A stretch of DNA of 64,000 nucleotides from a virus, in the IMG/VR virus record IMGVR_UViG_3300040770_000152, positions 17,287-81,286 of that record. One strand, 5' to 3'. Each line of letters starts with the position of its first letter. Position 1 is the stretch's first letter. The notes beneath the pieces are model-generated. The model saw nothing but the letters and a program-made list of their open reading frames with translations, was not told the origin of the DNA and ran no database searches. A program made the position numbers and the translations under genes. This document shows, in pieces, positions 18,055 through 63,054 of the stretch.

Positions 18055-18538
18055 GGATAAAACTGTTACACAATTTAGAGATATAGCCAGTTCCCCGATA
18101 GTAAAATTTTCGGGGAAAGCTACTATGCTCATAAAAGCCAATACTACAGGTAATCTGTTAACTTACCCTATACTGTTACCTTTTGATGGAGACGAGACAA
18201 ACTTTAGGATAGACTACTTTAACGAACTTAATAAACTACACGCACAAGGTAAATTAGAGGAGTTGTTGCAATTTAATTTTTTACATTCCTCAGGTGAAGA
18301 AGAAAAGTTACTTACTAGTCAGGAACTATTTGACTTACTAAATGAGAGTATAGAGACGAATACTAAGGTTTGTACGCTTGAAGAGGTAACTAAAAAAGTA
18401 CCTAAATTTTATAGACCCGTTGTTAGGTTTATGGCAGATAAACGAAATACAGGATTATTTATTATAATTCTTGTATCTGTAGTAGCTAATATAGCCACCT
18501 TAATAAATATTTTTATATGGCTCTTCCTAAACACCTAA
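18047..18538 (+). CDS. C-terminally membrane-anchored hypothetical protein, 163 aa
   Basis: Overlaps the recombinase end by 8 bases. The N-terminal 135 residues are soluble and helical. The final 30 (GLFIIILVSVVANIATLINI) form one transmembrane helix, making this a tail-anchored type protein. Unknown function. Confidence 0.6.
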   Translation: MREDKTVTQFRDIASSPIVKFSGKATMLIKANTTGNLLTYPILLPFDGDETNFRIDYFNELNKLHAQGKLEELLQFNFLHSSGEEEKLLTSQELFDLLNESIETNTKVCTLEEVTKKVPKFYRPVVRFMADKRNTGLFIIILVSVVANIATLINIFIWLFLNT

Positions 18539-18870
18539 GACCTCCGGATACTCCACAAGTAAAAGGTCGAAAATATGAGACGGTACTGGCTAAAACTCTC
18601 GGTGGTAGAGTTGCAGTAAATTCAGGTGCTACTTTTGGTGAGAACGATATTATAGCTGACTTTTGTGAAGTAGAAGCTAAATTAACTACCAACGAAAGTT
18701 ACAGTTTAAAAGCTAAGTATTTTCGGGAAGTAAAGAAGAAGTGTAGCATTAAAAAAATTCCTATAATGGTGGTAAACTTTGAAAAGTACAAGGACAGTTA
18801 CGCTATTGTACCAATGGAAGATTTTGAGTTCTTACTGGAAACCTTAGAAAACCTAAAAAATAAGCTGTAA
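18517..18870 (+). CDS. PD-(D/E)XK nuclease, Holliday-junction-resolvase-like
   Basis: 117 residues. The pattern G.KYE.VLAK.LGGRVAVNSGATFGENDIIADFCEVEAKLT carries the Asp (NDII) and E-x-K (EAK) of the PD-(D/E)XK fold, in the layout of phage and archaeal-type Holliday junction resolvases. YSLKAKYFREV and IPIMVVNFE complete the fold. It overlaps the previous gene by 22 bases and follows RecA, which supports a recombination role. Confidence 0.68.
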   Translation: MALPKHLRPPDTPQVKGRKYETVLAKTLGGRVAVNSGATFGENDIIADFCEVEAKLTTNESYSLKAKYFREVKKKCSIKKIPIMVVNFEKYKDSYAIVPMEDFEFLLETLENLKNKL

Positions 18871-25871: not shown

Positions 25872-25957
25872 GGTCTCTAAAGGTATTAGTCTTGTTCCAG
25901 CCGATAACGGACTTTTATTTGTCAATTCAATACACGGCAAAGAAAAAATCAAACATT

Positions 25958-26107
25958 ATGAAAAATGTACATTTTTTAACAACTGGAGCAGGTGCAGCTA
26001 AAGCACCCGCTAAAAAAACACCAGGTAAAAAAGCACCAGCTAAAAAAGCACCTGCTAAAAAAGCACCTGCTAAAGCACCTGCTAAAAAAACTAGAGTTAG
26101 AAAGTAA
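25958..26107 (+). CDS. Histone-H1-like Lys/Ala/Pro repeat protein, 49 aa
   Basis: From ATG 25958: MKNVHFLTTGAGAAKAP, then tandem KKAPA/KKTP units, ending KKTRVRK. The composition is that of histone-H1-tail-like proteins (as in AlgP and Hc1), which bind and condense DNA. The longer frame from 25892 is rejected because it would read through the leader of the promoter at 25864. The first residues (MK-x-x-HFLTT) are shared with the scaffold-like protein at 48837. It has its own promoter and terminator, suggesting strong expression. Confidence 0.65.
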   Translation: MKNVHFLTTGAGAAKAPAKKTPGKKAPAKKAPAKKAPAKAPAKKTRVRK

Positions 26108-26190: not shown

Positions 26191-26871
26191 ATGGATTCGA
26201 TTCTACTATTTTCGGCGGGTAAGGAAAGTCTATACCAGTTACACCATAAACAAAAAGTGATAGGCAAACTTATTATGTTTGACTACGGACAACTTTCTTT
26301 TCCAGCAGAGTTTACCTCACTTAGGTATTATGCTAAACTTTACGATAAACCGTATCAGGTAATCAAACTAGACTTCTTTATTTTACCACCAGCAATAAAA
26401 GATGGTATTGACTGCAATCCTTACGTAGCGCAAAGAAATTTAGTTTTTTGTAGTATTGCGCTATCTCTTGCAGAAGTAGGCGGTTATAAGAAAGTATTTT
26501 TAGGAGCCGTAGCTGATGCAGTAGATTTCGATGGTTCTCCAAGATTTGTAGATGATATGAATTACCTACTAGCTAGTAGTAGTGTAAAAGTCGAAAGTTT
26601 TTCTCGTAGGTATACTACAGGACAGATACTTGCTTCCCTAGTAAAAAATAAAGTAGACATATCCCACCTTTGGAGTTGCGATAATCCCAGAGATGCACCT
26701 ACATTTTGTGGATCTTGTGCTAAGTGTACTAGTGCTTTAAGAAACCTCAGAGACCATTATTCCAATAATAAGTTAGTTAGAAAATTCTACGACCAGAAAT
26801 ATAAAAATTCGGACATCCTAAATGTTTTAAGTTATGAGTTTGGACAGGAGCAAAAAATATGCGAGCGATAG
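26191..26871 (+). CDS. queC: QueC-like 7-cyano-7-deazaguanine (preQ0) synthase
   Basis: 226 residues, near the usual QueC length. The N-terminal PP-loop reads FSAGKES (7-13) in place of SGGxDS. FDYGQLSFPAE follows QueC 'fdYGQrh..E'. CNPYVAQRNLVF fits 'fVPgRNl.f', and VFLGAVADAVDFDGSPRF fits the 'i.iGa...D...YPDcR' region. Four zinc-ligand Cys (C163, C173, C176, C179: SCDNP...FCGSCAKC) complete the signature. QueC converts carboxydeazaguanine to preQ0 with ATP and ammonia. Its neighbours DpdA, QueE and QueD show that the product is meant for DNA rather than only tRNA. Confidence 0.85.
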   Translation: MDSILLFSAGKESLYQLHHKQKVIGKLIMFDYGQLSFPAEFTSLRYYAKLYDKPYQVIKLDFFILPPAIKDGIDCNPYVAQRNLVFCSIALSLAEVGGYKKVFLGAVADAVDFDGSPRFVDDMNYLLASSSVKVESFSRRYTTGQILASLVKNKVDISHLWSCDNPRDAPTFCGSCAKCTSALRNLRDHYSNNKLVRKFYDQKYKNSDILNVLSYEFGQEQKICER

Positions 26872-27790
26872 TAATAAGGATAAGGCAGTAATGTTTTTTT
26901 CCGCTTCCTCTTACAAGGATGCTCTAGCAGTACTAGATTCAGGTATAAATGATATTCTTACTTCCTACCACTATATAATGAAGCGTGAAAAAGGTTTCAC
27001 TGAAGACGTAATGCCCCGTATAAAAGCTAACGGAGGTTTATTTATGACAGATAGTGGTGCGTTTACTTTCTTTGCTAAACCTACTCCTGAGATGTACACC
27101 GAAGAATACTGGGAACCCTATATTGAAGAGTACGTTAAGTTTCTACGAGATAACGCTCACCAAATTTATTGTGCGGCTAACATGGATATTGATATTTTTG
27201 TAGGTCAAGAAATTGTAGATCGCTGGAACAAAAAGTATTTTGAACCTTTAAAAGGTATTGTTCAGATAGTTTACATTGTGCATGGTAATAAAGCTATACG
27301 TAGAGATGATGAATATGGAATAAAACGCTTTAAAGAATACGCAGCTAAATATGAATACTTAGGTATGGGTTCTTCTATGTTTAAGAAAAACTCTCGTTCA
27401 GACAACCGTTACTACGCCCTTGCTAGGTTGCTTAAAGTTAGGCTACATGGTTTTGGTTGGACTTCTATTCCCTCTTTAAAAGAGTTTCCTTTCTTTAGTG
27501 TGGATTCAACTACTTGGCTTGGGGGTGTTCGTTATGGAACTACCTATACCTATGATGGTGCTAACGATAGAGTACTGGACCACAAGAAAAAATTTAGACG
27601 TAAGGGTATGAAATCCTTATGTAAAGATTTAGGAATAAATCACGAAAACTTGTTATTAGAGAAGAGGGATGAAATAAATGCACTAAATTTGTATGGATGG
27701 AAAGGTTTTAGGTTTGAGTTTCTTAAGGCCGCCAATACTAAATTAAAGTATAACCCAGCACGTAGTTACGCTAAATACCTAGAAAAATGA
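26834..27790 (+). CDS. dpdA: DpdA-like DNA deazaguanine transglycosylase (TGT fold)
   Basis: 318 residues from the first ATG, which lies 38 bases inside queC; ATG 26891 (MFFSASSYKDAL) is an equally plausible start behind an A/G-rich leader. FMTDSGAFTFF (D73-S-G) corresponds to the DSGGFQ substrate loop of tRNA-guanine transglycosylases. NMDID (D118, D120) corresponds to the catalytic Asp region. YLGMGSSMF and RLHGFGWTS follow the TIM-barrel glycine turns (GG.. and H.lG), and FFSVDSTTWL gives the late Asp. The tRNA-binding zinc site of TGT is absent, as expected for phage DpdA. It swaps guanine for preQ0-type bases in DNA, blocking host restriction. Confidence 0.8.
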   Translation: MSLDRSKKYASDSNKDKAVMFFSASSYKDALAVLDSGINDILTSYHYIMKREKGFTEDVMPRIKANGGLFMTDSGAFTFFAKPTPEMYTEEYWEPYIEEYVKFLRDNAHQIYCAANMDIDIFVGQEIVDRWNKKYFEPLKGIVQIVYIVHGNKAIRRDDEYGIKRFKEYAAKYEYLGMGSSMFKKNSRSDNRYYALARLLKVRLHGFGWTSIPSLKEFPFFSVDSTTWLGGVRYGTTYTYDGANDRVLDHKKKFRRKGMKSLCKDLGINHENLLLEKRDEINALNLYGWKGFRFEFLKAANTKLKYNPARSYAKYLEK

Positions 27791-28092
27791 GAAGTACTGT
27801 AAAACAACATAAGAGAAAAGTCAAGAACAAAGTAGTAACCGTTACTAGGCACGCTAGAGGTAAGTACGGTAAAAAACCTAAGAATGATAAATACCCACCT
27901 AGAGATAACGCTAGTGTTGACCTTGCCACATTGCAGGCACACTATAAAAAGTATCAAGAGGAATTTACTAAGCTACTCAATGGACAATTAACTTCTAGTG
28001 ACCAACATAAAAGTTTTATTGCCCGTAGACTAAGAGCAGCCGCTAGAGCAATAAAGTTAAAACAAAAGAGAAACAAAAATTCGGATAACTAA
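27787..28092 (+). CDS. Basic protein with HxR tag, next to dpdA
   Basis: 101 residues, ATGA-coupled to dpdA. The N-terminus has two V-[KR]-x-H-x-R-like units (TVKQHKRKV and TVTRHARGK), the same tag as in five proteins at 52905-55034. The rest is helical and basic (LATLQAHYKKYQEEFTKL and IARRLRAAARAIKLKQKRN). It could be a DNA-binding cofactor of DpdA or a virion protein encoded early. Its position away from the other tagged genes is notable. Confidence 0.6.
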   Translation: MRSTVKQHKRKVKNKVVTVTRHARGKYGKKPKNDKYPPRDNASVDLATLQAHYKKYQEEFTKLLNGQLTSSDQHKSFIARRLRAAARAIKLKQKRNKNSDN

Positions 28093-28108
28093 TTAGAAAC
28101 ACTTTATT

Positions 28109-28702
28109 ATGCTAACACTACCAAAATTTATTAAGCGCACAAAAAATTCTTACCACACTATTAAGCCTTACGTAGCTGAGGTTATTTTCACACCCGATGA
28201 ATGTAAAATATTAGTCGAAGCAATTACTTCCAGTCAAGTAGGTAATAGGGAATTTATACCAGGTAAAGAGGGAAAAGATTCTAGTCGTTACGATTTAGAT
28301 AGTACCAAGTATGCTTGGGTATACGCTCGTATTTATGAATTTATGTTGAAAGCCAACAAAGAGAATTTTGGTTTAGATCCTAATTTTTGTTTGTCAGAGC
28401 CAGTATACCTTAATGAGTATAAGGGTAAGGAGTACTGCGGTTGGCATACAGATGGTTTTATATCTGATGGTGAAAAATACCTTTACAGAAAACTTACTTG
28501 CGTAATTCAGATGAGTGAACCTAAGGATTACACTGGAGGAGATTTTGAATTGTTTTCTTACCATGCAATACACGAAGATATTAGACCTATTGGTACTGCC
28601 TACATTATACCGGCTTTCGAGTGGCACAGAGTTACCCCTATTGAAAGTGGTACTAGAAGAAGTTTAATAATGTTTCTTGAAGGAACAGAACGCTTAAAAT
28701 AA
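28109..28702 (+). CDS. Fe(II)/2-oxoglutarate-dependent dioxygenase (prolyl-hydroxylase type)
   Basis: 197 residues. The double-stranded beta-helix iron site is complete: H113 and D115 in GWHTDGF and H173 in EWHRVTPIE, with R183/R184 in GTRRSL to hold 2-oxoglutarate. YTGGDFELF and GTAYIIPAFEWH are the typical 'y.GGeL.l' and 'G..v.Fps...H' strands of PKHD-type hydroxylases. It could hydroxylate a protein or a nucleobase. Its place between dpdA and queE suggests a role in deazaguanine metabolism, but this is inference from neighbourhood only. Confidence 0.82.
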   Translation: MLTLPKFIKRTKNSYHTIKPYVAEVIFTPDECKILVEAITSSQVGNREFIPGKEGKDSSRYDLDSTKYAWVYARIYEFMLKANKENFGLDPNFCLSEPVYLNEYKGKEYCGWHTDGFISDGEKYLYRKLTCVIQMSEPKDYTGGDFELFSYHAIHEDIRPIGTAYIIPAFEWHRVTPIESGTRRSLIMFLEGTERLK

Positions 28703-29541
28703 TGCCTAGAAAAAGTAAACGTTTAGAAGAAGCAATAGTATCTGTAGAGGAAGTATCTCCAGAATTACTAGATAAAACACCTAAAAAAGAAGTCTCCCTT
28801 ATACTTAAGGAAGGGGAGTTTATGCATGACCTAGTTGGTGAGATAACAGAAGTTGAGGACTTACGTAATGTTGTCTGTCCTTTCTACAAAAACGGTAGAG
28901 CTGTTAAATGTATAGGCTGTAAAAAAGAAGATGATATTGTAGAAGGTTGCAAGGAGGAACTAATAGCCGGTTTATTACGTAGACCTACTTACGGACTTTC
29001 GGGAGCCTTTTATGATACTGCATTTGATTTGCCCATAGTGTTACCTAGGGTAGCAAAAGTTTCTGTATTAGACACAGTAGCAATGGGATTGATTTGTAAT
29101 ACTTGTCACGTTTCAGACAATTGCCCACTTTATGTAGAGAATCATGAGTGTGGTATTGACTGGAAAGAGGGAGTAGACACCACAGACACAAAAGCTGTCT
29201 TAGGCCACATGATTGACTTACAGATGCAGCGCGTTACTCGTGCTAGAAATATGGAGTTAATCGATGGTGGTATGCCTGACCAAACCACTTCGGGAGAAAT
29301 GGATCGCCTTACGGGTCTTATAGGTATGAAAGACAACTTGGATGCTGACCGATTTTCTGTTCGTATTGATGCCAGTAGTAAGAGTGGTAGCGAAGGCGGC
29401 GGAATACTCGCTAAACTTTTCGGAGGTGGAGGTAGTGGTAGTAATACCGAGAATCTCCCTGAGTTAGAAGCTAAAACAATTGATTTTGAAGAACTGGAAG
29501 TAAAACCCGCTACCAAAGATAAAAGAAAAAAAGATGAATAA
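28702..29541 (+). CDS. Cys-rich hypothetical protein in the deazaguanine cluster
   Basis: 279 residues, TAATG-coupled to the oxygenase gene and overlapping queE by 8 bases. Two Cys groups: CPFYKNGRAVKCIGCKK...GC (about 53-76) and CNTCHVSDNCPLYVENHEC (about 132-150); both could bind Zn or Fe-S. A helical part follows (MIDLQMQRVTRARNMELID, then SGEMDRLTGLIG) and a Gly/Ser-rich C-terminus. A Cys cluster followed by an EMDRL helix and a Gly-rich end faintly recalls some phage DNA-packaging accessory (small terminase-type) proteins; alternatively it is a partner in base modification. Unassigned. Confidence 0.6.
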   Translation: MPRKSKRLEEAIVSVEEVSPELLDKTPKKEVSLILKEGEFMHDLVGEITEVEDLRNVVCPFYKNGRAVKCIGCKKEDDIVEGCKEELIAGLLRRPTYGLSGAFYDTAFDLPIVLPRVAKVSVLDTVAMGLICNTCHVSDNCPLYVENHECGIDWKEGVDTTDTKAVLGHMIDLQMQRVTRARNMELIDGGMPDQTTSGEMDRLTGLIGMKDNLDADRFSVRIDASSKSGSEGGGILAKLFGGGGSGSNTENLPELEAKTIDFEELEVKPATKDKRKKDE

Positions 29542-30274
29542 GTTAAGACTAAACACTATCTACATTACCTATCAAGGTGAGGTAAACCATTTCGGAATCG
29601 GTACTCCCGTAATCTTTTTACGTTTACAAGGATGTCCTATTCGTTGCTACAAAGATACTATGGGTGTTCTTTGTGACACTCCAGAGGCTTTAGAAAAAGG
29701 TACTAGCAACTCTCTTGAGGTTACTGAAATAGTAAACCGATTAAAAGACGTTAAGAAGTACACAGGAATTAATCTTATCTGTTTAAGTGGTGGAGACCCT
29801 CTTTGGCAGAATAAGGAATCACTACATGATTTGTTTCAGCAGTTAGAGGCGAATAAATTTAATGTGAGTGTTGAGACTTCGGGAGTAATATCTATAAAAC
29901 CTTACAGTAAGTACAAGAATGTTTTTTGGGTAGTTGACTATAAATTATTGTCTGCAGGTGTAAAGACAGATTTCCATAAAGATAACTACGCTACCCCTGA
30001 GGGAACTATTATAAAATTCGTTGTTTATGACGAGGCTGATTTAGCTGAGGCTATACACATATATAGACTGGGTGTGTTTAGTTTAAATACTAAATTTACT
30101 TTTGGTTTATATTGGGGAACTACAAAAATCACTTACTCCGAATTAACGGGTCGCCTTGTACGGGAGAATATGTTAGGCCTAGTAGGGGTAAATTTCCAAG
30201 TACATAAAATGGCTGAGTTTTATGACCAAAACAGTGTAGCTGCCCATGAAACAGTAGTTAGAGCTAAAATTTAG
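29534..30274 (+). CDS. queE: QueE-like radical SAM 7-carboxy-7-deazaguanine synthase
   Basis: 246 residues. IYITYQGEVNHFGIGTPVIFLRLQGC matches the QueE start ('fysiQGEg...G.p.vFiRL.GC'). The cluster ligands are C34, C38 and C47, spaced C-x3-C-x8-C and followed by DTP; most QueE have C-x3-C-x2-C-DT, so about six residues are inserted between the second and third Cys. LICLSGGDPLWQ is the SAM-binding GGEP-type motif with Asp for Glu, and VSVETSG is the next strand. It converts carboxytetrahydropterin to carboxydeazaguanine, feeding QueC. It overlaps the upstream Cys-rich gene. Confidence 0.82.
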   Translation: MNKLRLNTIYITYQGEVNHFGIGTPVIFLRLQGCPIRCYKDTMGVLCDTPEALEKGTSNSLEVTEIVNRLKDVKKYTGINLICLSGGDPLWQNKESLHDLFQQLEANKFNVSVETSGVISIKPYSKYKNVFWVVDYKLLSAGVKTDFHKDNYATPEGTIIKFVVYDEADLAEAIHIYRLGVFSLNTKFTFGLYWGTTKITYSELTGRLVRENMLGLVGVNFQVHKMAEFYDQNSVAAHETVVRAKI

Positions 30275-30289
30275 TTTCAGAATATTTAA

Positions 30290-30321
30290 TTTGATTATTA
30301 ATTTAGGTTTGTGTATAATTA
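30290..30321 (+). promoter_or_regulatory. Putative queD promoter (TTTG-N20-TATAATTA)
   Basis: TTTG at 30290-30293 and TATAATTA at 30314-30321 are 20 bases apart, in the 73-base gap between queE and queD. The gap contains nothing else, so this is a reasonable promoter. Confidence 0.45.
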
Positions 30322-30347
30322 CATATTCCAATAAAAACAAGTAGCCC

Positions 30348-30782
30348 ATGTTTACGGAATCCACTATCATTAAAGATTACCATTTTTATACTGCTCACAG
30401 GAACGAAAACTTACGAGATAAATGTCGTAATATCCACGGACACACGTACTATCTAAAAATAGGTTTACGCTTTTTAACCTCTGAATTTAATGTAGAATCA
30501 GGTATTTACTTAAACTTTAATGATGTGGATGCCCACATGGAACCTTTAGTTAAATCTTTAGATCATGCAACACTAGTATCTAAAAAAGATTCCCTACTTG
30601 TAGAGTGTGTTAGTCAATACCCAGATATTTTTGGCAAAATAGTTTTAATGCCCGAAGCTACTTCTGTGGAGAACTTAACACAATTTATTGCTAATTTAAT
30701 ACGTACAACACCGCTAGGTAAGAACCTAGCTTTTATATCAATTAAAGAAACAACCACATCGGAAGTAGTTCTTAACTTCTAA
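30348..30782 (+). CDS. queD: QueD-like 6-carboxytetrahydropterin synthase
   Basis: 144 residues, typical PTPS/QueD length. Zinc ligands H17 (YTAHRN), H30 and H32 (IHGHTYYLKI) and catalytic C26 (DKCRNIHGH) are present. LNFNDVDAHMEPLVKSLDHATL carries the D-x(11-12)-LDH segment (D72-H73), and PEATSVENLTQFIA is the 'PT.EN.a..i' motif. KETTTSEVVL supplies the late Glu. It makes carboxytetrahydropterin from dihydroneopterin triphosphate, the step after FolE. FolE itself is not in the window. Confidence 0.88.
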   Translation: MFTESTIIKDYHFYTAHRNENLRDKCRNIHGHTYYLKIGLRFLTSEFNVESGIYLNFNDVDAHMEPLVKSLDHATLVSKKDSLLVECVSQYPDIFGKIVLMPEATSVENLTQFIANLIRTTPLGKNLAFISIKETTTSEVVLNF

Positions 30783-48836: not shown

Positions 48837-49679
48837 ATGAAAAAATTTCATTTTTTGACAACAACTACGCACACTACTTCGGAACAGACAACAGGACCAC
48901 AAAGAGTAACAATACCAAGAACTATCAACATTGGGGGACAAGAGTTCTCTGTTGCTGATACACCAGAGCTTAATAGCTTGGTTTCATTAATCAGACAAGA
49001 CGCAGCAGCTATCGAAAAAGGTAAACTGTACCCAGCGTTTGAAAAATTACAAAGAGACTACCAAACTTTAGCTACTGCCGAAATTATTAATCCCAGTAAA
49101 GGTAATGCGGGGGAGGAAGTAATTTTAGCAACTGCGGAAGCTAAGTTAGATCAATTGTTTAAAGCTTTCACTGATAAATTAGAACCATTGTTATCTGCTA
49201 ATGCTAGAAATGAAGAAGCTAGTCTTGAGGCTTACAAAAGTAAACTTCTACAAGAAAATTTAGGTAAAGTTATTCCCGAATTAGTAGTTGGTACTACTAG
49301 AGAAGAAATAGACGCATCCCTTGAAAGTTCTAAAAGTTTATGCGCTAAGTACGCACCACAATTTGGAGTTACAAATATTGAGTATCAGATGCAGCATGCA
49401 CCTATAGCCAAAGTTACACCACCACAGGTAGTAAATCAAACGGCACCGCAAGTAGCTCCTAATACCGTTGCTCCACAGACACAAACAGCTCCAGTAACTA
49501 ACGCAAACCCAGAAACTAACGCTATTGCTCCAGAACGAACAGTTGTTTTACCTAGTTCTCCAGCAAGTACTGAAATAGCAAGTACAGAAGCACCTAACGT
49601 TGGCTCAATGTCAATGGACGAGTTCTCACGAAGACGCGAAGAGTTACGTGCAGGATTATCTAATGTTTTAGGCAACTAG
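48837..49679 (+). CDS. Scaffold-like head protein with HFLTT N-terminus
   Basis: 280 residues. Begins MKKFHFLTTTTHTT, shared with the KAPA protein at 25958. The middle is helical (AKLDQLFKAFTDKLEPLLSA, then NARNEEASLEAYKSKLLQEN) as in scaffolding proteins. The C-terminal third is Pro/Thr/Ala-rich with a basic end (FSRRREELRAGLSNVLGN). Its position between portal and major capsid protein, helical content and length favour scaffold, or a protease-less head-maturation protein. A retropepsin-like protease at 25464 may be the missing maturation protease. Confidence 0.65.
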   Translation: MKKFHFLTTTTHTTSEQTTGPQRVTIPRTINIGGQEFSVADTPELNSLVSLIRQDAAAIEKGKLYPAFEKLQRDYQTLATAEIINPSKGNAGEEVILATAEAKLDQLFKAFTDKLEPLLSANARNEEASLEAYKSKLLQENLGKVIPELVVGTTREEIDASLESSKSLCAKYAPQFGVTNIEYQMQHAPIAKVTPPQVVNQTAPQVAPNTVAPQTQTAPVTNANPETNAIAPERTVVLPSSPASTEIASTEAPNVGSMSMDEFSRRREELRAGLSNVLGN

Positions 49680-49733: not shown

Positions 49734-50726
49734 ATGTTATTATCAATTTTTTCATTCATTTTATTGGCTGTATTTTCTTTTGCGGAAGTTACATCACAGT
49801 CTACATCAGCTGCAGGGTATACTCCAATCCCAGAGGCAGTAAGAGCTTTTTACTCTAAAGAGGTACTTTTTCAAGCACAACCTATCTGTAAATTTTTACA
49901 ATTCGCCAAGCAAAAAAGAGACTTGCAAGCAATTAGAGGTAAGTCAATCACATTTACTAAGTACGGTAATTTAGCAGGTGGAGGTTCTATTAACGAAGAG
50001 GACATTCTTGCAGCTAACAATTTAGTTACAAGTGAGATCACTATTACAGTTAAAGAACAGGCTAACATGGTTACATTAACCGAGTTATTGCTTAGAACTT
50101 CTTTACTTGACGTAATGGGAGATGCTTCTAAATTACTTGCTAATAACTTAGCTACAGTTCTAGACAAACAATTTAGAGACGCTTGTTTAAGCACTACTAA
50201 TGTTGTGTTTGGAGATGGAGCTGCTTCTACTACAGGTATGTCTACTTCTTCTGTATTTAATAGTAAAACTGTTAAAGATGCCGTAGAGATATTAGCTACT
50301 AACAATGCACCTAAATTCAACGGAGAGTACTATGTATGCGTTGCGCACCCTAAGCAGTTACGTCAATTGAGAGATGATGCAGCTTGGATTAATGCTAATA
50401 CTTACATGGGTAGAAGACAATTATACATTGGTGAGGTAGGTATGTACGAAGGAGTCGTATTTATCGAGACTACTAATATGTCTTTATTAACGTCTGCTCA
50501 GACCGTGGCTAAATACGGAGGTACTTTTGCACCAGCAGCTTCTTGTGAAGCAGTAATTTTTGGAGAAAACGCTTATGCTTGGGCAGTTGCGTTGGACGTA
50601 GAATTACGTGACGATGGTGTTAAAGAAATGGGACGTAAGAGAACATTAGGTTGGTACGGTATATGGGGAATCGGTTTAATCGAGGAAGATAACGTAATCA
50701 AAATTCTAACCGCAGCTACCCTTTAA
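49734..50726 (+). CDS. Major capsid protein (N4-gp56 family, HK97 fold)
   Basis: 330 residues. SKEVLFQAQPICKFLQFAKQ, then KSITFTKYGNLAGGGSINE and VTLTELLLRTSLLDVM follow the N4-gp56 major capsid pattern. YYVCVAHPKQLRQLRDDAAW and GEVGMYEGVVFIETTNM complete it. The N-terminal 18 residues (LLSIFSFILLAVFSFAEV) are strongly hydrophobic and look like a signal peptide, unexpected for a capsid protein; there is no in-frame ATG downstream. A terminator hairpin overlaps its stop codon, probably setting its expression relative to downstream genes. Confidence 0.85.
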   Translation: MLLSIFSFILLAVFSFAEVTSQSTSAAGYTPIPEAVRAFYSKEVLFQAQPICKFLQFAKQKRDLQAIRGKSITFTKYGNLAGGGSINEEDILAANNLVTSEITITVKEQANMVTLTELLLRTSLLDVMGDASKLLANNLATVLDKQFRDACLSTTNVVFGDGAASTTGMSTSSVFNSKTVKDAVEILATNNAPKFNGEYYVCVAHPKQLRQLRDDAAWINANTYMGRRQLYIGEVGMYEGVVFIETTNMSLLTSAQTVAKYGGTFAPAASCEAVIFGENAYAWAVALDVELRDDGVKEMGRKRTLGWYGIWGIGLIEEDNVIKILTAATL

Positions 50727-52108: not shown

Positions 52109-52478
52109 TTCCCCAAAGGTAGTTACTATTATACTAGTACAATTACCTCAAGAGGGAGAACCAGCAACATTTGAAAACTTTACCGGAATACAAGCAGCCG
52201 AGGTAACTAAGACAGTTACCTTAAATTGTTTATACAACAAAAATGACCTAGACTTTGACGAAAGTTACGCAGGATACCAGAACATAGCTTCCGGAACACT
52301 ATACTTTTCTCCTAAGCAACTTATACAGGCATTTGGTACTTTTCGCCTAGATGGTAGAGAGGTACGTTTTGTATTGGACGGTAAGGAGTATAATACTATA
52401 GATGTATCTCTTTCTGAGGAACTTTTCGATACTTGTATAGCAGTCGAATTTAATATTAAAGATAAACTTCGCGGATAA
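52101..52478 (+). CDS. Hypothetical virion protein, about 125 aa (start uncertain)
   Basis: GTG 52101 within GTGACTAA would overlap the previous stop by 8 bases; the longest frame uses TTG 52041 and overlaps by 68. The body is beta-rich (VVTIILVQLPQEG, TKTVTLNCLY, IASGTLYFSP), as in small head-completion or tail proteins. Ends coupled to the next gene. Confidence 0.55.
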   Translation: MTNSPKVVTIILVQLPQEGEPATFENFTGIQAAEVTKTVTLNCLYNKNDLDFDESYAGYQNIASGTLYFSPKQLIQAFGTFRLDGREVRFVLDGKEYNTIDVSLSEELFDTCIAVEFNIKDKLRG

Positions 52479-52903
52479 TGAACAAAGCAGCTATAATATC
52501 TAGAGGTATGAAAGTGGCTAGTTCCCACCCAAAAGCTAAAGCACCTAATGTCGCTAAAGATTTTCCAAAGGGTATGGAACTTTTTGCTGAATCTATGGCT
52601 GTTTACTTCGTTAAGTACGTTACTGAAAGAGTTGAAGAAGAGTACAAAATTCCGCTACTGGGTATAACGCTAAGTAAAGGTGAATTGTTACGTAGTGTGG
52701 AGCAAAAAGAAAGCGTTGTTACTATCACTAACGGTAGAATTCAAGATGTAAAGTATCGAGAAATCTGGCGTTACTTTGAGTATGGACGTATGGATAAAGG
52801 TGTGATTCCTGACCCTATTCTAAAGAAAATATTTTTAGAATTTCGTCCAGTGTACAAAGAAGCTTTGAAAAAACACATAAAGTCTAAGTCAAGTAAGAGA
52901 TAG
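52478..52903 (+). CDS. Hypothetical minor virion protein, 141 aa
   Basis: Helical with a short beta hairpin (SVVTITNGRIQDVKYREIWR). Its size, position after the head genes and the EIWRYFEYGR segment recall minor tail/head-closure proteins of the HK97 gp10 type. Tentative. Confidence 0.5.
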   Translation: MNKAAIISRGMKVASSHPKAKAPNVAKDFPKGMELFAESMAVYFVKYVTERVEEEYKIPLLGITLSKGELLRSVEQKESVVTITNGRIQDVKYREIWRYFEYGRMDKGVIPDPILKKIFLEFRPVYKEALKKHIKSKSSKR

Positions 52904-52904
52904 T

Positions 52905-53081
52905 ATGAGAAAAGTAAAAAAACATTTGCGTAAAGGGCGTATAGTAAAAGCCCACAGTAGAAAAGTTAGTTGGACTTTTGGTGGTAAGAGGTACTCAGGT
53001 ACTGAACTTCTTAGTAAAGAAACTTCCACTCACCGATTTGCTAGAACTGAGAACGGAAAAATTAAACGTATTAAAAAATAA
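52905..53081 (+). CDS. Small basic protein with HxR tag, 58 aa
   Basis: An uninterrupted frame starting one base after the previous stop (MRKVKKHLRKG, RIVKAHSRKV). Two [VR]K-x-H-x-R units as in the following genes, then a short Ser/Gly/Thr-rich tail. Five bases separate it from the next member. Confidence 0.6.
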   Translation: MRKVKKHLRKGRIVKAHSRKVSWTFGGKRYSGTELLSKETSTHRFARTENGKIKRIKK

Positions 53082-53086
53082 AAATT

Positions 53087-53452
53087 ATGGCTACAACGGT
53101 AAGGTCACACTCAAGAAGTGTAAAAGGTAAAAAGAATACTAGTGTTAAGCGTCATGCACGTACAGTAAAGAGCCACTCTAGGTATGGTACTGAAGCGTAC
53201 AACCTTAAACGTAGATTATCTAGTTCTATGACAGGTGCAGGAAAGGACAAAGCTGGAACCAACAAAATGTCAACAGTTAACGTGGACAAATTAGTTGCTA
53301 ACGACAGACGTAGAGACAAGAGGGCAGGTATTCCTCAGGCGACTAGTAAGATTCATAACCTTAGACGTATTATTGCTAATGATGGAGGTAATACGTTTGG
53401 TAGCTCCCACGATTCTGATGGTAGAAGAATACTTAAAAAGAAAAAGAAATAG
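53087..53452 (+). CDS. HxR-tagged basic protein, 121 aa
   Basis: The N-terminus carries three V-[KR]-x-H-x-R units: TVRSHSR, SVKRHAR and TVKSHSR, linked by VKGKKN. The C-terminal part is basic and includes VDKLVANDRRRDKRAG. Part of a run of four complete tagged genes with 2-5-base spacing. No known family for the C-terminus. Confidence 0.65.
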   Translation: MATTVRSHSRSVKGKKNTSVKRHARTVKSHSRYGTEAYNLKRRLSSSMTGAGKDKAGTNKMSTVNVDKLVANDRRRDKRAGIPQATSKIHNLRRIIANDGGNTFGSSHDSDGRRILKKKKK

Positions 53453-53454
53453 TT

Positions 53455-54054
53455 ATGAATTACACTACAGTTAAAAGGCATACTAGGGTTGGTAAGAATA
53501 AAGTATCTACGGTACGCAGGCACGCAAGAAGTGTTGCTCCTAGTAAACTTGTTTCCCAATTCAAGAATCGTTACGCTATTAAGTCGGGTGTTACCGTTAC
53601 CAAAGGTGATTATCCTGACCCAGAGGGTACTTCTATGGCTTTAACTGAAAGTAAGGTCTCTAAACACTCTAAAATTCCTACGGATCATAAAATTACTCTC
53701 AAAGACAAGAAAATTAAATCCTCGGGCGAAAATCAGGATACTCTTGTACACCACGAGCTTTCCCACATACTTGCTAGAGAGAAAAAATTAAAGACTTTGC
53801 CCGAATTTAAAGACTTGATTACTGAGGTTAGAAAAACCCCAACCTATAAGAACCAGGTAAAGAACGATGATACTTATGGTAAGGACACAGAGGAAATTTT
53901 TGCCCGTTTATATTCTCAGGTAAATACGGGTGATACAAGTTCAAATGATTACCTATTTAATAAAAAAGAATTACGTAAATTAGCTCCATTAATGGGGAAA
54001 CTATTAACAAAAGTTTCAGGTACTAAAAATAGTATTAGAGGCACTAAAAAATAA
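53455..54054 (+). CDS. HxR-tagged zincin-like metallopeptidase, 199 aa
   Basis: The N-terminal tag is TVKRHTRVGKNKVSTVRRH. The catalytic domain contains DTLVHHELSHILARE with HELSH (HExxH, about residue 99), and a downstream TEEIFARLYSQV whose Glu could be the third ligand. Metallopeptidases in this position might process virion or host-envelope proteins. That the tag joins an enzyme domain here and unrelated tails in its neighbours argues that it is a separable targeting module. Confidence 0.7.
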   Translation: MNYTTVKRHTRVGKNKVSTVRRHARSVAPSKLVSQFKNRYAIKSGVTVTKGDYPDPEGTSMALTESKVSKHSKIPTDHKITLKDKKIKSSGENQDTLVHHELSHILAREKKLKTLPEFKDLITEVRKTPTYKNQVKNDDTYGKDTEEIFARLYSQVNTGDTSSNDYLFNKKELRKLAPLMGKLLTKVSGTKNSIRGTKK

Positions 54055-54059
54055 GAGGT

Positions 54060-54470
54060 ATGGCAACTACAGTAAAATCACATTCAAGATCGGTTAAGGG
54101 TAAAGGAAATACTTCGGTTAAGAGGCATAGTCGTAAAGCTGGTAAACAAACTTTAGGCCACAAGGTTAAGACCAGTCTAGCATACAAGGGAGTAAAAAAC
54201 CCTATTCGTAGCGATATGGAAAGTACCAGAGAACAACTTAAAGATGGTGGTTTTAAAACCTCTTTATCTGCTATGAAAAAAGGAGGTATAGCTGAAAAGC
54301 GTGCCTATATAATGGCTCACAAATTAGACGATTTTACAGGTTCCCACAAAGTAGATGGTACTAAAAAGTCACGTAAAAGCTCTAAGTTGCACAAGCCTAT
54401 GGTTAAGAAAAAGGTAGCTGCAAACTCTGTTGAGGCATATAAAAGATTCACCACTAAAAAAAGAAGATAA
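54060..54470 (+). CDS. HxR-tagged basic protein, 136 aa
   Basis: Tag TVKSHSRSVKGKGNTSVKRH then SRKAG. The remainder includes ESTREQLKDGGFKTSLSAM and a very basic C-terminus (KSRKSSKLHKPMVKKKV). DNA- or membrane-binding is plausible from the charge alone. Confidence 0.62.
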   Translation: MATTVKSHSRSVKGKGNTSVKRHSRKAGKQTLGHKVKTSLAYKGVKNPIRSDMESTREQLKDGGFKTSLSAMKKGGIAEKRAYIMAHKLDDFTGSHKVDGTKKSRKSSKLHKPMVKKKVAANSVEAYKRFTTKKRR

Positions 54471-54473
54471 AAT

Positions 54474-55034
54474 ATGGCAACTACAGTAAAGTCACACGCT
54501 AGAAGCGTAAAGGGAAAAGGTAACACCAGTGTTAAAAGGCACTCTAGAGTTAGTAAGGGTAAAAACTCTAAATGTTCTAGTATGTCTATGGAGATGTGCA
54601 AGGAAAAATACGCTATGATGGTAGAGAAGTATGGTAAAGATTCTCCACAGGCTGAAAAAATGGCTATGAAAATGGAGAGTATGGATACCGTTGAAAAATC
54701 TTCACGTATGAAGAAAGTAAAAAAATATTCTAGAGAATCTTCTCGTACTCCTATTGACGAGGAGATATTGGTTAAGAATGCTAAGAAAAAATTTGGAGAC
54801 CGCAGAGTTAGTAAAAAAGTTGGTCCTAAAGGTGTAGACGCTATTTACGCCAAAACTCCAGAACTGGATAACCCAAACTATAAGAAAAAGATACACAGGG
54901 GGACTAAGATGGGAACTTCTGTAATTTCTATAGCTGCAGATAAAAAAAGATACAGGGTAGCGTCTAACGGTAAAACTCCAGATACTTGGCATGAAGTTAA
55001 AAAATACGGTACTAAGAAAAGTAGAAAAAAATAA
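54474..55034 (+). CDS. HxR-tagged basic protein, 186 aa
   Basis: Tag TVKSHARSVKGKGNTSVKRH nearly identical to that of the preceding gene. Then a Met/Lys-rich helix (CKEKYAMMVEKYGKDSPQAE) and a C-terminal domain (about 110-180: GVDAIYAKTPELDNPNYKKK, KRYRVASNGKT, TWHEVKKYG) that may be a small folded unit. Unknown function. Confidence 0.62.
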   Translation: MATTVKSHARSVKGKGNTSVKRHSRVSKGKNSKCSSMSMEMCKEKYAMMVEKYGKDSPQAEKMAMKMESMDTVEKSSRMKKVKKYSRESSRTPIDEEILVKNAKKKFGDRRVSKKVGPKGVDAIYAKTPELDNPNYKKKIHRGTKMGTSVISIAADKKRYRVASNGKTPDTWHEVKKYGTKKSRKK

Positions 55035-55040
55035 ACCGCT

Positions 55041-55634
55041 ATGCTACTAACACTGCAAGATGTCCATGAGGGATTTTTTAAACTATTCCAGCCAAAGGTT
55101 ACTGTTTCATTAGGTACAGTTCCCTTGGACATTTCTGTTGTGTATGCTAGGCACTCTAACAGAGAGTACGCTAAAAAACTTGAAGAGGCTTACCCTAGGA
55201 TAGTACTTCTAGACAAAACAATTAGTTTTTCTAGTGATTGGAGACCTAATGAAGAAAAGACTATACTTGCTTACGAGTACGACCCAGAGGGAAAAGTTAT
55301 AGGCGCTCATTTAGGTAAGGATCCTATAGAGCTAGTATTTGAGTATCAGGTATCAGGTTACTTTGATAACTTACTACATAAGTTAGCTTTCATGCAGTGG
55401 GTATTTGAAAATTTCCGTGCTTTTGGAGGTTTATTATTCAACCCTATTGAAGTAGAGGGGGAACTGGTTGGTGACAAGGTTACTTACTCTATGTACACAG
55501 ATGAGTTTGAGAGAACTGATGGTATTTTTGAGTACACTTTATTTTTTACTCTTAGACCATTAGTTCATTTAGAAAAGGTAGAGTTACTAGACCTAGTAGA
55601 AACACACAACATAAATATTAATTTAAAGAATTAA
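55041..55634 (+). CDS. Hypothetical tail-region protein, 197 aa
   Basis: Beta-rich, with YDPEGKVIGAHLGKDPIELV and VFENFRAFGGLLFNPIEVEG. Located between the tagged genes and the fibre, so likely a tail or baseplate-type component. No specific family recognised. Confidence 0.55.
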   Translation: MLLTLQDVHEGFFKLFQPKVTVSLGTVPLDISVVYARHSNREYAKKLEEAYPRIVLLDKTISFSSDWRPNEEKTILAYEYDPEGKVIGAHLGKDPIELVFEYQVSGYFDNLLHKLAFMQWVFENFRAFGGLLFNPIEVEGELVGDKVTYSMYTDEFERTDGIFEYTLFFTLRPLVHLEKVELLDLVETHNININLKN

Positions 55635-61871: not shown

Positions 61872-62747
61872 ATGAAAAAGATTTTTTATTCACTAATTTT
61901 TGTTTGTGCCACATTTACTACAAGTGTGGCTCAGGCACAAATCATCAACAGTTATGCTAATGTAGCAGCGGTAGCTGGTTTTGATACTGATGCTCAATTA
62001 GCAATTAATGCTATTGGAACATTAACAGAGCCACAAAAAACAGCTTTAAATAATCTAGTAGTTGGGTTTAAAAACGCAGGGACTTGGAGCAAGTTTAAAG
62101 CTATTTACCCATTAATTGGAGGTACTGCAGCAAGTCATAAATGGAACATTAAAGACCCAAGAGATTTAGATGCTGCTTATAGATTAACTTTTGTAAATGG
62201 AGGTGGAAGTTTTACTCATAGTAGCAATGGCATTTCAAACACAGGTTCGTCTTATGCTAGAACTTATGCAATAGGCTCTTCTGTTCTATCACAAAATAGT
62301 GGTCATTTATCTATATACTCTAAAACTAATGGTGATTTTGGTGGAGCGGCTGAAATGGGAGGTATTAAACTGGATGAAAGCAACGGAGCAATGATTTTAA
62401 TTAAATGGGGGATTAGCTACTCTGCTATGAATGACAATAAAGTTTCAGGTGGATTCAGCCCTCCTTTTGTTAATGAACTAGGTTTATACGTAACAAATAG
62501 AATAGATGCCAACACTCTTAAAATATCTAGAAATGGAACTACTGTAAACATAGCTGCAACCTCATTACCTCCAATAAATTTTGAGTTGTATCTTTGTGGG
62601 GCTAATAGAGAAAACAATAGTGTTTTTTCAAGTAGACGTCTTTTAGCTTTTGGATCATTTGGAGAGGGTTTTACTGATGCCGAAATAGTAGCTAATAATA
62701 CAGTAATACAAGCTTATCAAGAAGCTTTAGGAAGAAAAGAGTTATGA
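61872..62747 (+). CDS. Secreted-type fibre/LamG-like protein, 291 aa
   Basis: Signal-peptide-like start (KKIFYSLIFVCATFTTSVAQ, then AQ). The body (FDTDAQLAINAIGTLTEPQK, KAIYPLIGGTAASHKWNIK, DPRDLDAAYRLTF) belongs to a family I recognise as recurrent in Bacteroidota phages, usually next to fibre genes and with a LamG-like beta fold. Probably a receptor-binding or adhesion tip. ATGA-coupled to the next gene. Confidence 0.7.
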   Translation: MKKIFYSLIFVCATFTTSVAQAQIINSYANVAAVAGFDTDAQLAINAIGTLTEPQKTALNNLVVGFKNAGTWSKFKAIYPLIGGTAASHKWNIKDPRDLDAAYRLTFVNGGGSFTHSSNGISNTGSSYARTYAIGSSVLSQNSGHLSIYSKTNGDFGGAAEMGGIKLDESNGAMILIKWGISYSAMNDNKVSGGFSPPFVNELGLYVTNRIDANTLKISRNGTTVNIAATSLPPINFELYLCGANRENNSVFSSRRLLAFGSFGEGFTDAEIVANNTVIQAYQEALGRKEL

Positions 62748-62875
62748 GAATAATTATATTCATAGTATTTATTATCTTTAGCTGCGCTCCGGCTAAGGAT
62801 AATACAATACAAGTAAAAGAAAAAACAATAGTGTACCCAGATCCAACATTTAATAACCTACTAATTATTCCTTAA
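62744..62875 (+). CDS. Small lipoprotein, 43 aa
   Basis: MRIIIFIVFIIFSCAPAKDN has a hydrophobic stretch followed by FSC, a lipobox-like site. The ATGA overlap upstream and TAATG overlap downstream support reality. Small phage lipoproteins near holin-like genes can be outer-membrane spanin subunits (Rz1-like); this is inference. Confidence 0.5.
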   Translation: MRIIIFIVFIIFSCAPAKDNTIQVKEKTIVYPDPTFNNLLIIP

Positions 62876-63054
62876 TGCCGTCAGAACATTTTATAGAAAC
62901 AGTAGAAAGAAGCAAGCTATCTTTGTCAAACTTACCAGAAGGATTATCTGCAATACATAAAGCGTTTATCGCTAAGATAGCTGTAGAGAATTATAACTTA
63001 GGATTTAGAGAAGGCTTAAAACATAACTTAAAAACCCTTAAAACCCCAAACTAA
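62875..63054 (+). CDS. Small helical hypothetical protein, 59 aa
   Basis: TAATG overlap with the previous stop. Helix-rich (IHKAFIAKIAVENYNLGFRE). No membrane segment. Ends one base before the holin-like gene. Unknown. Confidence 0.5.
   Translation: MPSEHFIETVERSKLSLSNLPEGLSAIHKAFIAKIAVENYNLGFREGLKHNLKTLKTPN

Follow-up and report, generated by a model that had tools for sequence, protein, structure and literature searches.

Tagged genes at the locus

The window analysed here comprises 64,000 of the 81,286 bases of a virus record, and counts of the tag described below were taken over the whole record, with its 128 predicted genes. Five consecutive ORFs between a neck gene and a probable tail terminator gene, together with a sixth ORF beside dpdA, all exhibit near their N-terminus a short tag of V-[KR]-x-H-x-R units (Table 1). 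Each gene has two such units, except that tagged protein 2 has a third (residues 27-32). The initial annotation had described six genes with a shared basic tag of two or three units, and on both points the ORFs bear it out. Within the array the intergenic gaps are 1-6 bp, the neck gene lies directly upstream and the terminator gene downstream; a scan of the array for promoter or terminator signals revealed none that stands out.

Table 1. Tagged genes, their tags and neighbouring genes of the late operon, in window coordinates
Feature	Coordinates	Strand	Profile match or basis of assignment
Tag of tagged protein 1, two units, short KGR turn	52914..52961	+	
Tagged protein 1, 58 aa, pI 11.8, small basic cargo	52905..53081	+	no Pfam/PHROG match
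Tag of tagged protein 2, three units	53099..53182	+	
Tagged protein 2, 121 aa, pI 11.6	53087..53452	+	
Tag of tagged protein 3 (zincin), predicted beta-hairpin, strands at residues 2-12 and 16-26	53470..53529	+	
Tagged protein 3, 199 aa, SprT-like zincin-type cargo, HELSH motif	53455..54054	+	
Tag of tagged protein 4	54072..54134	+	
Tagged protein 4, 136 aa, pI 10.9	54060..54470	+	
Tag of tagged protein 5	54486..54548	+	
Tagged protein 5, 186 aa, pI 10.2	54474..55034	+	
Tag of tagged protein 6 (dpdA-linked)	27799..27858	+	
Tagged protein 6, 101 aa, pI 10.9, beside dpdA	27787..28092	+	cargo in common with BS162P1 62609-62929
Major capsid protein	49734..50726	+	phrog_1357 E 2e-52; Pfam PF13252
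Probable scaffold, acidic, pI 5.2	48837..49679	+	named by position before capsid gene
Neck / tail-completion (Neck1) protein, borders slot	52478..52903	+	phrog_5 weak E 0.009; relative L010: phrog_222 E 2e-16
Probable tail terminator, other slot border	55041..55634	+	position and conserved order in relatives; no profile match

Two-unit genes make up 6 of the 128 predicted genes of the record, and no tagged protein arose in 2000 shuffles of the whole proteins or of their N-termini. Single V[KR]xHxR units occur 12 times against an expectation of 0.17, all 12 of them inside the six tagged genes; the corresponding DNA pattern likewise matches 12 times in the record, whereas the reversed pattern has no match. 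The search expression V[KR].H.R.{6,12}V[KR].H.R put forward in the initial annotation is somewhat too narrow, catching four of the six genes and missing tagged protein 1, whose linker between units is 4 residues, and tagged protein 6, whose second unit reads VTRHAR. The six proteins have strongly basic pI values of 10.0-11.8, while the genome median is 6.7. The tags of tagged proteins 4 and 5 are identical at 24 of 25 residues despite 13 synonymous codon differences. They are thus not the product of a fresh duplication, and selection keeps the protein sequence of the tag.

A variable slot in the late operon

Relatives of this phage were gathered through the major capsid protein (MCP). They include the Bacteroides phage BS162P1 and one human-gut record, and those in cellular genomes are limited to two distant Clostridia-type MAG contigs. 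The gene order common to the relatives is portal, small gene, scaffold, capsid, connector genes, neck gene, slot and tail terminator, several of these names being given by position only. The slot holds from 0 to 12 tagged genes: twelve in L021, five in the window phage, and one or two each in L010, L012, L024, L025 and L027. The slot of L009 is without a tagged gene, one being found just after the terminator gene instead; L020 contains degenerate tagged copies, and L024 and L027 have further tagged or degenerate genes upstream of the portal gene. In L163, a distant relative, the neck gene runs a few bases into the terminator gene, the slot is absent and there is no tag; the arrangement in L173 and L178 is similar. 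Since the tagged genes occupy one variable place that is missing in L163-type relatives, the slot is a lineage-specific insertion hotspot in the late operon.

A tag profile run against 76 mostly distant MCP loci gave a clear match to L164 only (score 8.9; best decoy 7.0). Tags are confined to the closer MCP relatives, L164 alone scoring among the more distant ones, and they are retained even where capsid protein identity between phages is only about 50%. The initial annotation had pointed to the surroundings of head genes in other phages, and in related phages tagged genes do cluster next to the capsid gene: all 12 tagged genes of G006 and five of the six of the window phage lie within 13 kb of it (binomial tails of 4e-11 and 5e-4, respectively, with tandem duplication ignored). 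Short-peptide tblastn searches against named phages have almost no power for a motif of this kind.

The MCP itself begins (window 49734-49800) with a signal-peptide-like hydrophobic stretch, MLLSIFSFILLAVFSFAEV, which is unusual for a capsid protein. Such a start is seen in most relatives (L009, L010, L012, L020, L022, L024, L025 and L027), L021 not being among them.

One tag on mostly unrelated cargoes

The tag is modular. In a BLASTP comparison of 28 tagged proteins most of the cargoes are unrelated to each other, and alignment statistics detect no kinship between the cargoes within the window. A Pfam scan of the tagged window proteins gave no domain above the cut-off, and PDB sequence and fold searches returned nothing usable, the 'Cake' matches in the PDB search having been set aside as compositional. 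The cargo of tagged protein 1 was also considered as a shortened form of that of L009, an idea dropped at an alignment z of 1.3.

The cargo of tagged protein 3 had been described as a zincin-like peptidase. This assignment gains support from its HELSH motif, from a second tagged zincin in L021 (34-35% identity; E 2.7e-10 for the cargo alone) and from Foldseek matches to phage SprT-like proteins, which have a probability of 1.0 but a weak E-value (8e-3) and were obtained with a model of moderate quality (mean pLDDT 67). No other relative of this zincin than that of L021 was found in viral_contigs or in named phages.

Two other cargo types have homologues without the tag. The L009 cargo corresponds to phrog_7595, and its match to phrog_220, a family described as 'minor head protein and DNA pilot', covers part of that family (E 4e-5). 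Untagged copies of it occur in many marine phages, and in the cyanophage KBS-S-2A the untagged gene lies between minor-head and coat genes. Proteins outside the tagged set also contain the cargo domain shared by L017, L025 and L027: it lies C-terminally in GMA6, a prohead protease-like protein, forms part of proteins annotated as capsid maturation proteases, closes a portal protein, and exists as a stand-alone gene between MuF-like and scaffold genes. Recognisable relatives of the cargoes outside the tagged set are thus usually located in head modules. Several L021 cargoes exhibit glycine-rich hydrophobic stretches and could enter membranes.

Predicted hairpin and similar hairpins in other viral proteins

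AlphaFold, applied to an alignment of 23 tags, predicts a beta-hairpin with a pLDDT of 89-94 over residues 1-20, and the model of the zincin, tagged protein 3, also begins with a hairpin. The two units are spaced by 10, 11, 14 or 15 residues, with a turn-like GK, DG or SG in the middle. An antiparallel pairing in which position k of the first unit faces position 6-k of the second would be consistent with this model, and would bring the K, H and R residues of the tag onto one face of the hairpin.

Look-alike hairpins were found by the DNA pattern in unrelated viral contigs. G009 (L036 / L091-L096, 17968-62037) encodes at least ten large proteins with starts near 'LLKALIQV[KR]xHTRKDGTxVRAHTRN'. 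One of them exhibits DarA_C and phrog_1926, 'released from the phage upon host infection', two end in zincins, and the array also includes a SNF2-type helicase domain; as a whole it resembles an extensive set of injected polyvalent proteins. A 2903-aa protein of L139 with an LPD1 domain has a similar hairpin near its N-terminus. In some Neck1 (Phage_tail_S) proteins the hairpin occupies a variable loop between HQFG and IPARPFL. This loop holds a basic hairpin in L251, L255, L259, L261, L250, L241 and L244, among which L251, L259 and L244 have a profile match to Neck1 / Phage_tail_S. The loop hairpin is missing in DMS3 and in the Vibrio and Rhodobacter relatives, and the loop is short or different in DMS3 and the window phage. 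The kinship of the tag with the hairpins of G009, L139 and Neck1 is best regarded as a set of leads, as convergence could produce a motif this short (20 residues).

Other matches were set apart as coincidence or as something of another kind. These are a conserved LDEEVKVHKRPTFVVRIHQR protein that fits the tag pattern, and a recurring group of proteins, about 330-570 aa long (where complete, mostly about 390-570 aa), with a C-terminal 'RKRIFHxVRPHVRADGTxVKMHFRGExxFxWAGY' hairpin, found in L105, L106, L111, L113, L115, L118, L120, L121, L123, L125, L126, L132, L134, L135 and L137. For the protein of L120, the sole member of this group to be scanned, neither Pfam nor PHROG gave a match. The signal-peptide proteins VRGHTRKDGTYVQPHVRS contain a motif that resembles the tag by eye and likewise looks like a separate thing.

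The dpdA-linked tagged gene

Tagged protein 6 lies about 22 kb from the late operon, in a region (window 26191-30782) of probable queC, dpdA, queE and queD genes, the que names coming from a reading of the sequence and not from profiles. This gene set suggests a 7-deazaguanine modification of the DNA. The same cluster encodes a 197-aa protein (28109-28702) that reads like a 2-oxoglutarate/Fe(II) oxygenase and might take part in DNA modification. A small ORF (25892-26107) immediately ahead of queC is histone-H1-like and ends in KAPAKKTPGKKAPAKKAPAKK repeats.

BS162P1, a phage of B. salyersiae BSC162, has two tagged genes (BS162P1_00026, 18272-18580, and BS162P1_00089, 62609-62929). The second, about 44 kb from the late operon, is the counterpart of tagged protein 6: it is likewise located among queC, dpdA and queE genes, and the two cargoes align with z = 7. 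The dpdA gene is present in all five near-complete tagged relatives (G000, G002, G006, W01 and W02). It is also present in untagged relatives, so modification and tag are not strictly coupled, and the idea that the tag is tied to DNA modification through dpdA was dropped.

Comparison with known phage proteins

The internal proteins of T4 have no homology to each other except in the leader that directs their packaging (PMC12373910, PMC3012670). They are packaged, injected and inhibit different restriction enzymes, and are encoded in a variable locus (PMC3012670, PMC12373910). Their capsid-targeting sequence (CTS) is a propeptide of 10-20 residues that is removed by the prohead protease (PMC5694885). 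The tagged proteins are similar in two respects: one conserved N-terminal leader is found on otherwise unrelated proteins, and the genes are in a variable locus that differs between relatives (0-12 genes in the slot). In contrast to the CTS, the tag is basic and about 20-25 residues long, is predicted to fold as a hairpin and is not known to be cleaved, and the tagged phages have a different capsid protein and a dpdA gene. The resemblance would be one of working principle, and we do not claim membership in the T4 system.

Polyvalent proteins such as DarA and DdrB of P1 are predicted to be packaged and injected, and metallopeptidase domains are frequent among them (Iyer et al. 2017, PMC5512222). 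A putative metallopeptidase cargo is a common feature, and members with LPD1 or DarA_C have a similar hairpin close to their N-terminus. However, polyvalent proteins have 2-15 domains, whereas the tagged proteins of the window are 58-199 aa long with at most one recognised domain, and lack this multidomain architecture; the main text of PMC5512222 contains no match to 'HxR'. Some members of Phage_tail_S / Neck1 (PF05069, phrog_26, phrog_5) carry a V+xHxR..SG..V.V+xHxR hairpin in their variable loop, and the slot of the window phage adjoins a Neck1-like gene, although the tagged window proteins themselves give no Neck1 profile match. Crassviruses, with hosts of the same phylum as the tagged phages, store accessory cargo proteins in head and tail; unlike the tagged proteins these are large and of RNA-polymerase type, and the part of the account considered here (PMC10172136) notes no shared tag.

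A putative virion-loading label

With moderate confidence, we propose that the tag is a virion-loading label which works like the T4 capsid-targeting leader with a different sequence. Accessory proteins with unrelated activities would be made late, in the head-to-tail operon with the head and neck proteins. Their stand-alone basic hairpin (V-K-x-H-x-R, turn, V-K/R-x-H-x-R) would serve as the docking element, either in the growing head or at the neck, for which the acidic scaffold (pI 5.2), the neck ring and the DNA are candidate partners. The docked proteins would be packaged and then delivered along with the DNA into the next host, on which the cargoes may act. In the initial annotation one tag on many cargoes was taken to suggest targeting. 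The unrelated cargoes, the selection on the tag and the proximity to capsid genes agree with this much, and from them we infer virion loading and a binding partner. The head-module relatives of the cargoes, and the hairpins in Neck1 and in large polyvalent-type proteins, narrow the options towards the head or neck and the injected set. Counting against loading, two tagged genes (tagged protein 6 and its BS162P1 counterpart at 62609) are far from the late operon, only the closer MCP relatives and L164 have the tag, and neither a prohead protease nor cleavage of the tag was identified.

The tag and most cargoes are so basic (pI 10-11.8) that DNA binding explains much without targeting. According to this main rival, the hairpin is a general DNA-binding element, and the proteins cover the DNA of the phage or the host in the cell or act on it, in replication, modification, compaction or host takeover, and are not selectively packaged. 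It accords with a pI of at least 10 in all tagged proteins against the genome median of 6.7, with the K/R and H residues that would line one face of the predicted hairpin, and with a conserved tagged gene in the dpdA cluster. However, a fold search matched no DNA-binding fold (no E below 2), and DNA binding leaves unexplained the concentration of tagged genes in the head-tail operon slot, the head-associated relatives of two cargoes and the hairpin inside Neck1 proteins; we hold it to be unlikely.

The tagged proteins might instead serve as minor structural components of neck or connector, their hairpin plugging into the portal, neck or terminator rings, with no delivery to the host. The position of the slot exactly between the neck and terminator genes would suit such parts, as would the same kind of hairpin in the Neck1 loop of other phages. 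But their number (0 to 12 per phage) and identity vary, and L163 lacks the slot altogether, so that no tagged protein is a required part; moreover one cargo is a putative zincin and L021 cargoes have glycine-rich hydrophobic stretches. A structural role is, to our judgement, quite improbable. Tandem arrays of small genes sharing one end could also be recombination debris, a small basic leader having spread by duplication in a gene-rich hotspot with no function of its own. Against this, a nearly identical tag protein sequence with 13 synonymous codon differences shows selection, and tags are kept where the capsid proteins are only about 50% identical; we give such an origin very little credence.

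Implications

Beyond the virion-loading label proposed for these phages, a portable basic hairpin of 20-25 residues might be a general loading signal used independently by unrelated phages, a reading that we advance tentatively and consider doubtful. In Bacteroides-type phages it would stand N-terminally on the small accessory proteins; in other phages it would lie close to the start of giant polyvalent effectors, and it would also form part of Neck1 proteins. Injected effectors would in that case be predictable directly from a sequence motif.

A search of the open-access literature found no published description for the tag motif and BS162P1. BS162P1 is an isolated phage with two tagged genes, hence the question is directly testable. 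If the tag loads particles, injected effectors of Bacteroides-type gut phages, for which that search found no such signal described, could be recognised by a sequence rule, and the tag would be a tool with which to pack chosen proteins into these phages. A phage with DNA-modification genes and a variable set of loaded proteins would then parallel T4, whose internal proteins defend its modified DNA.
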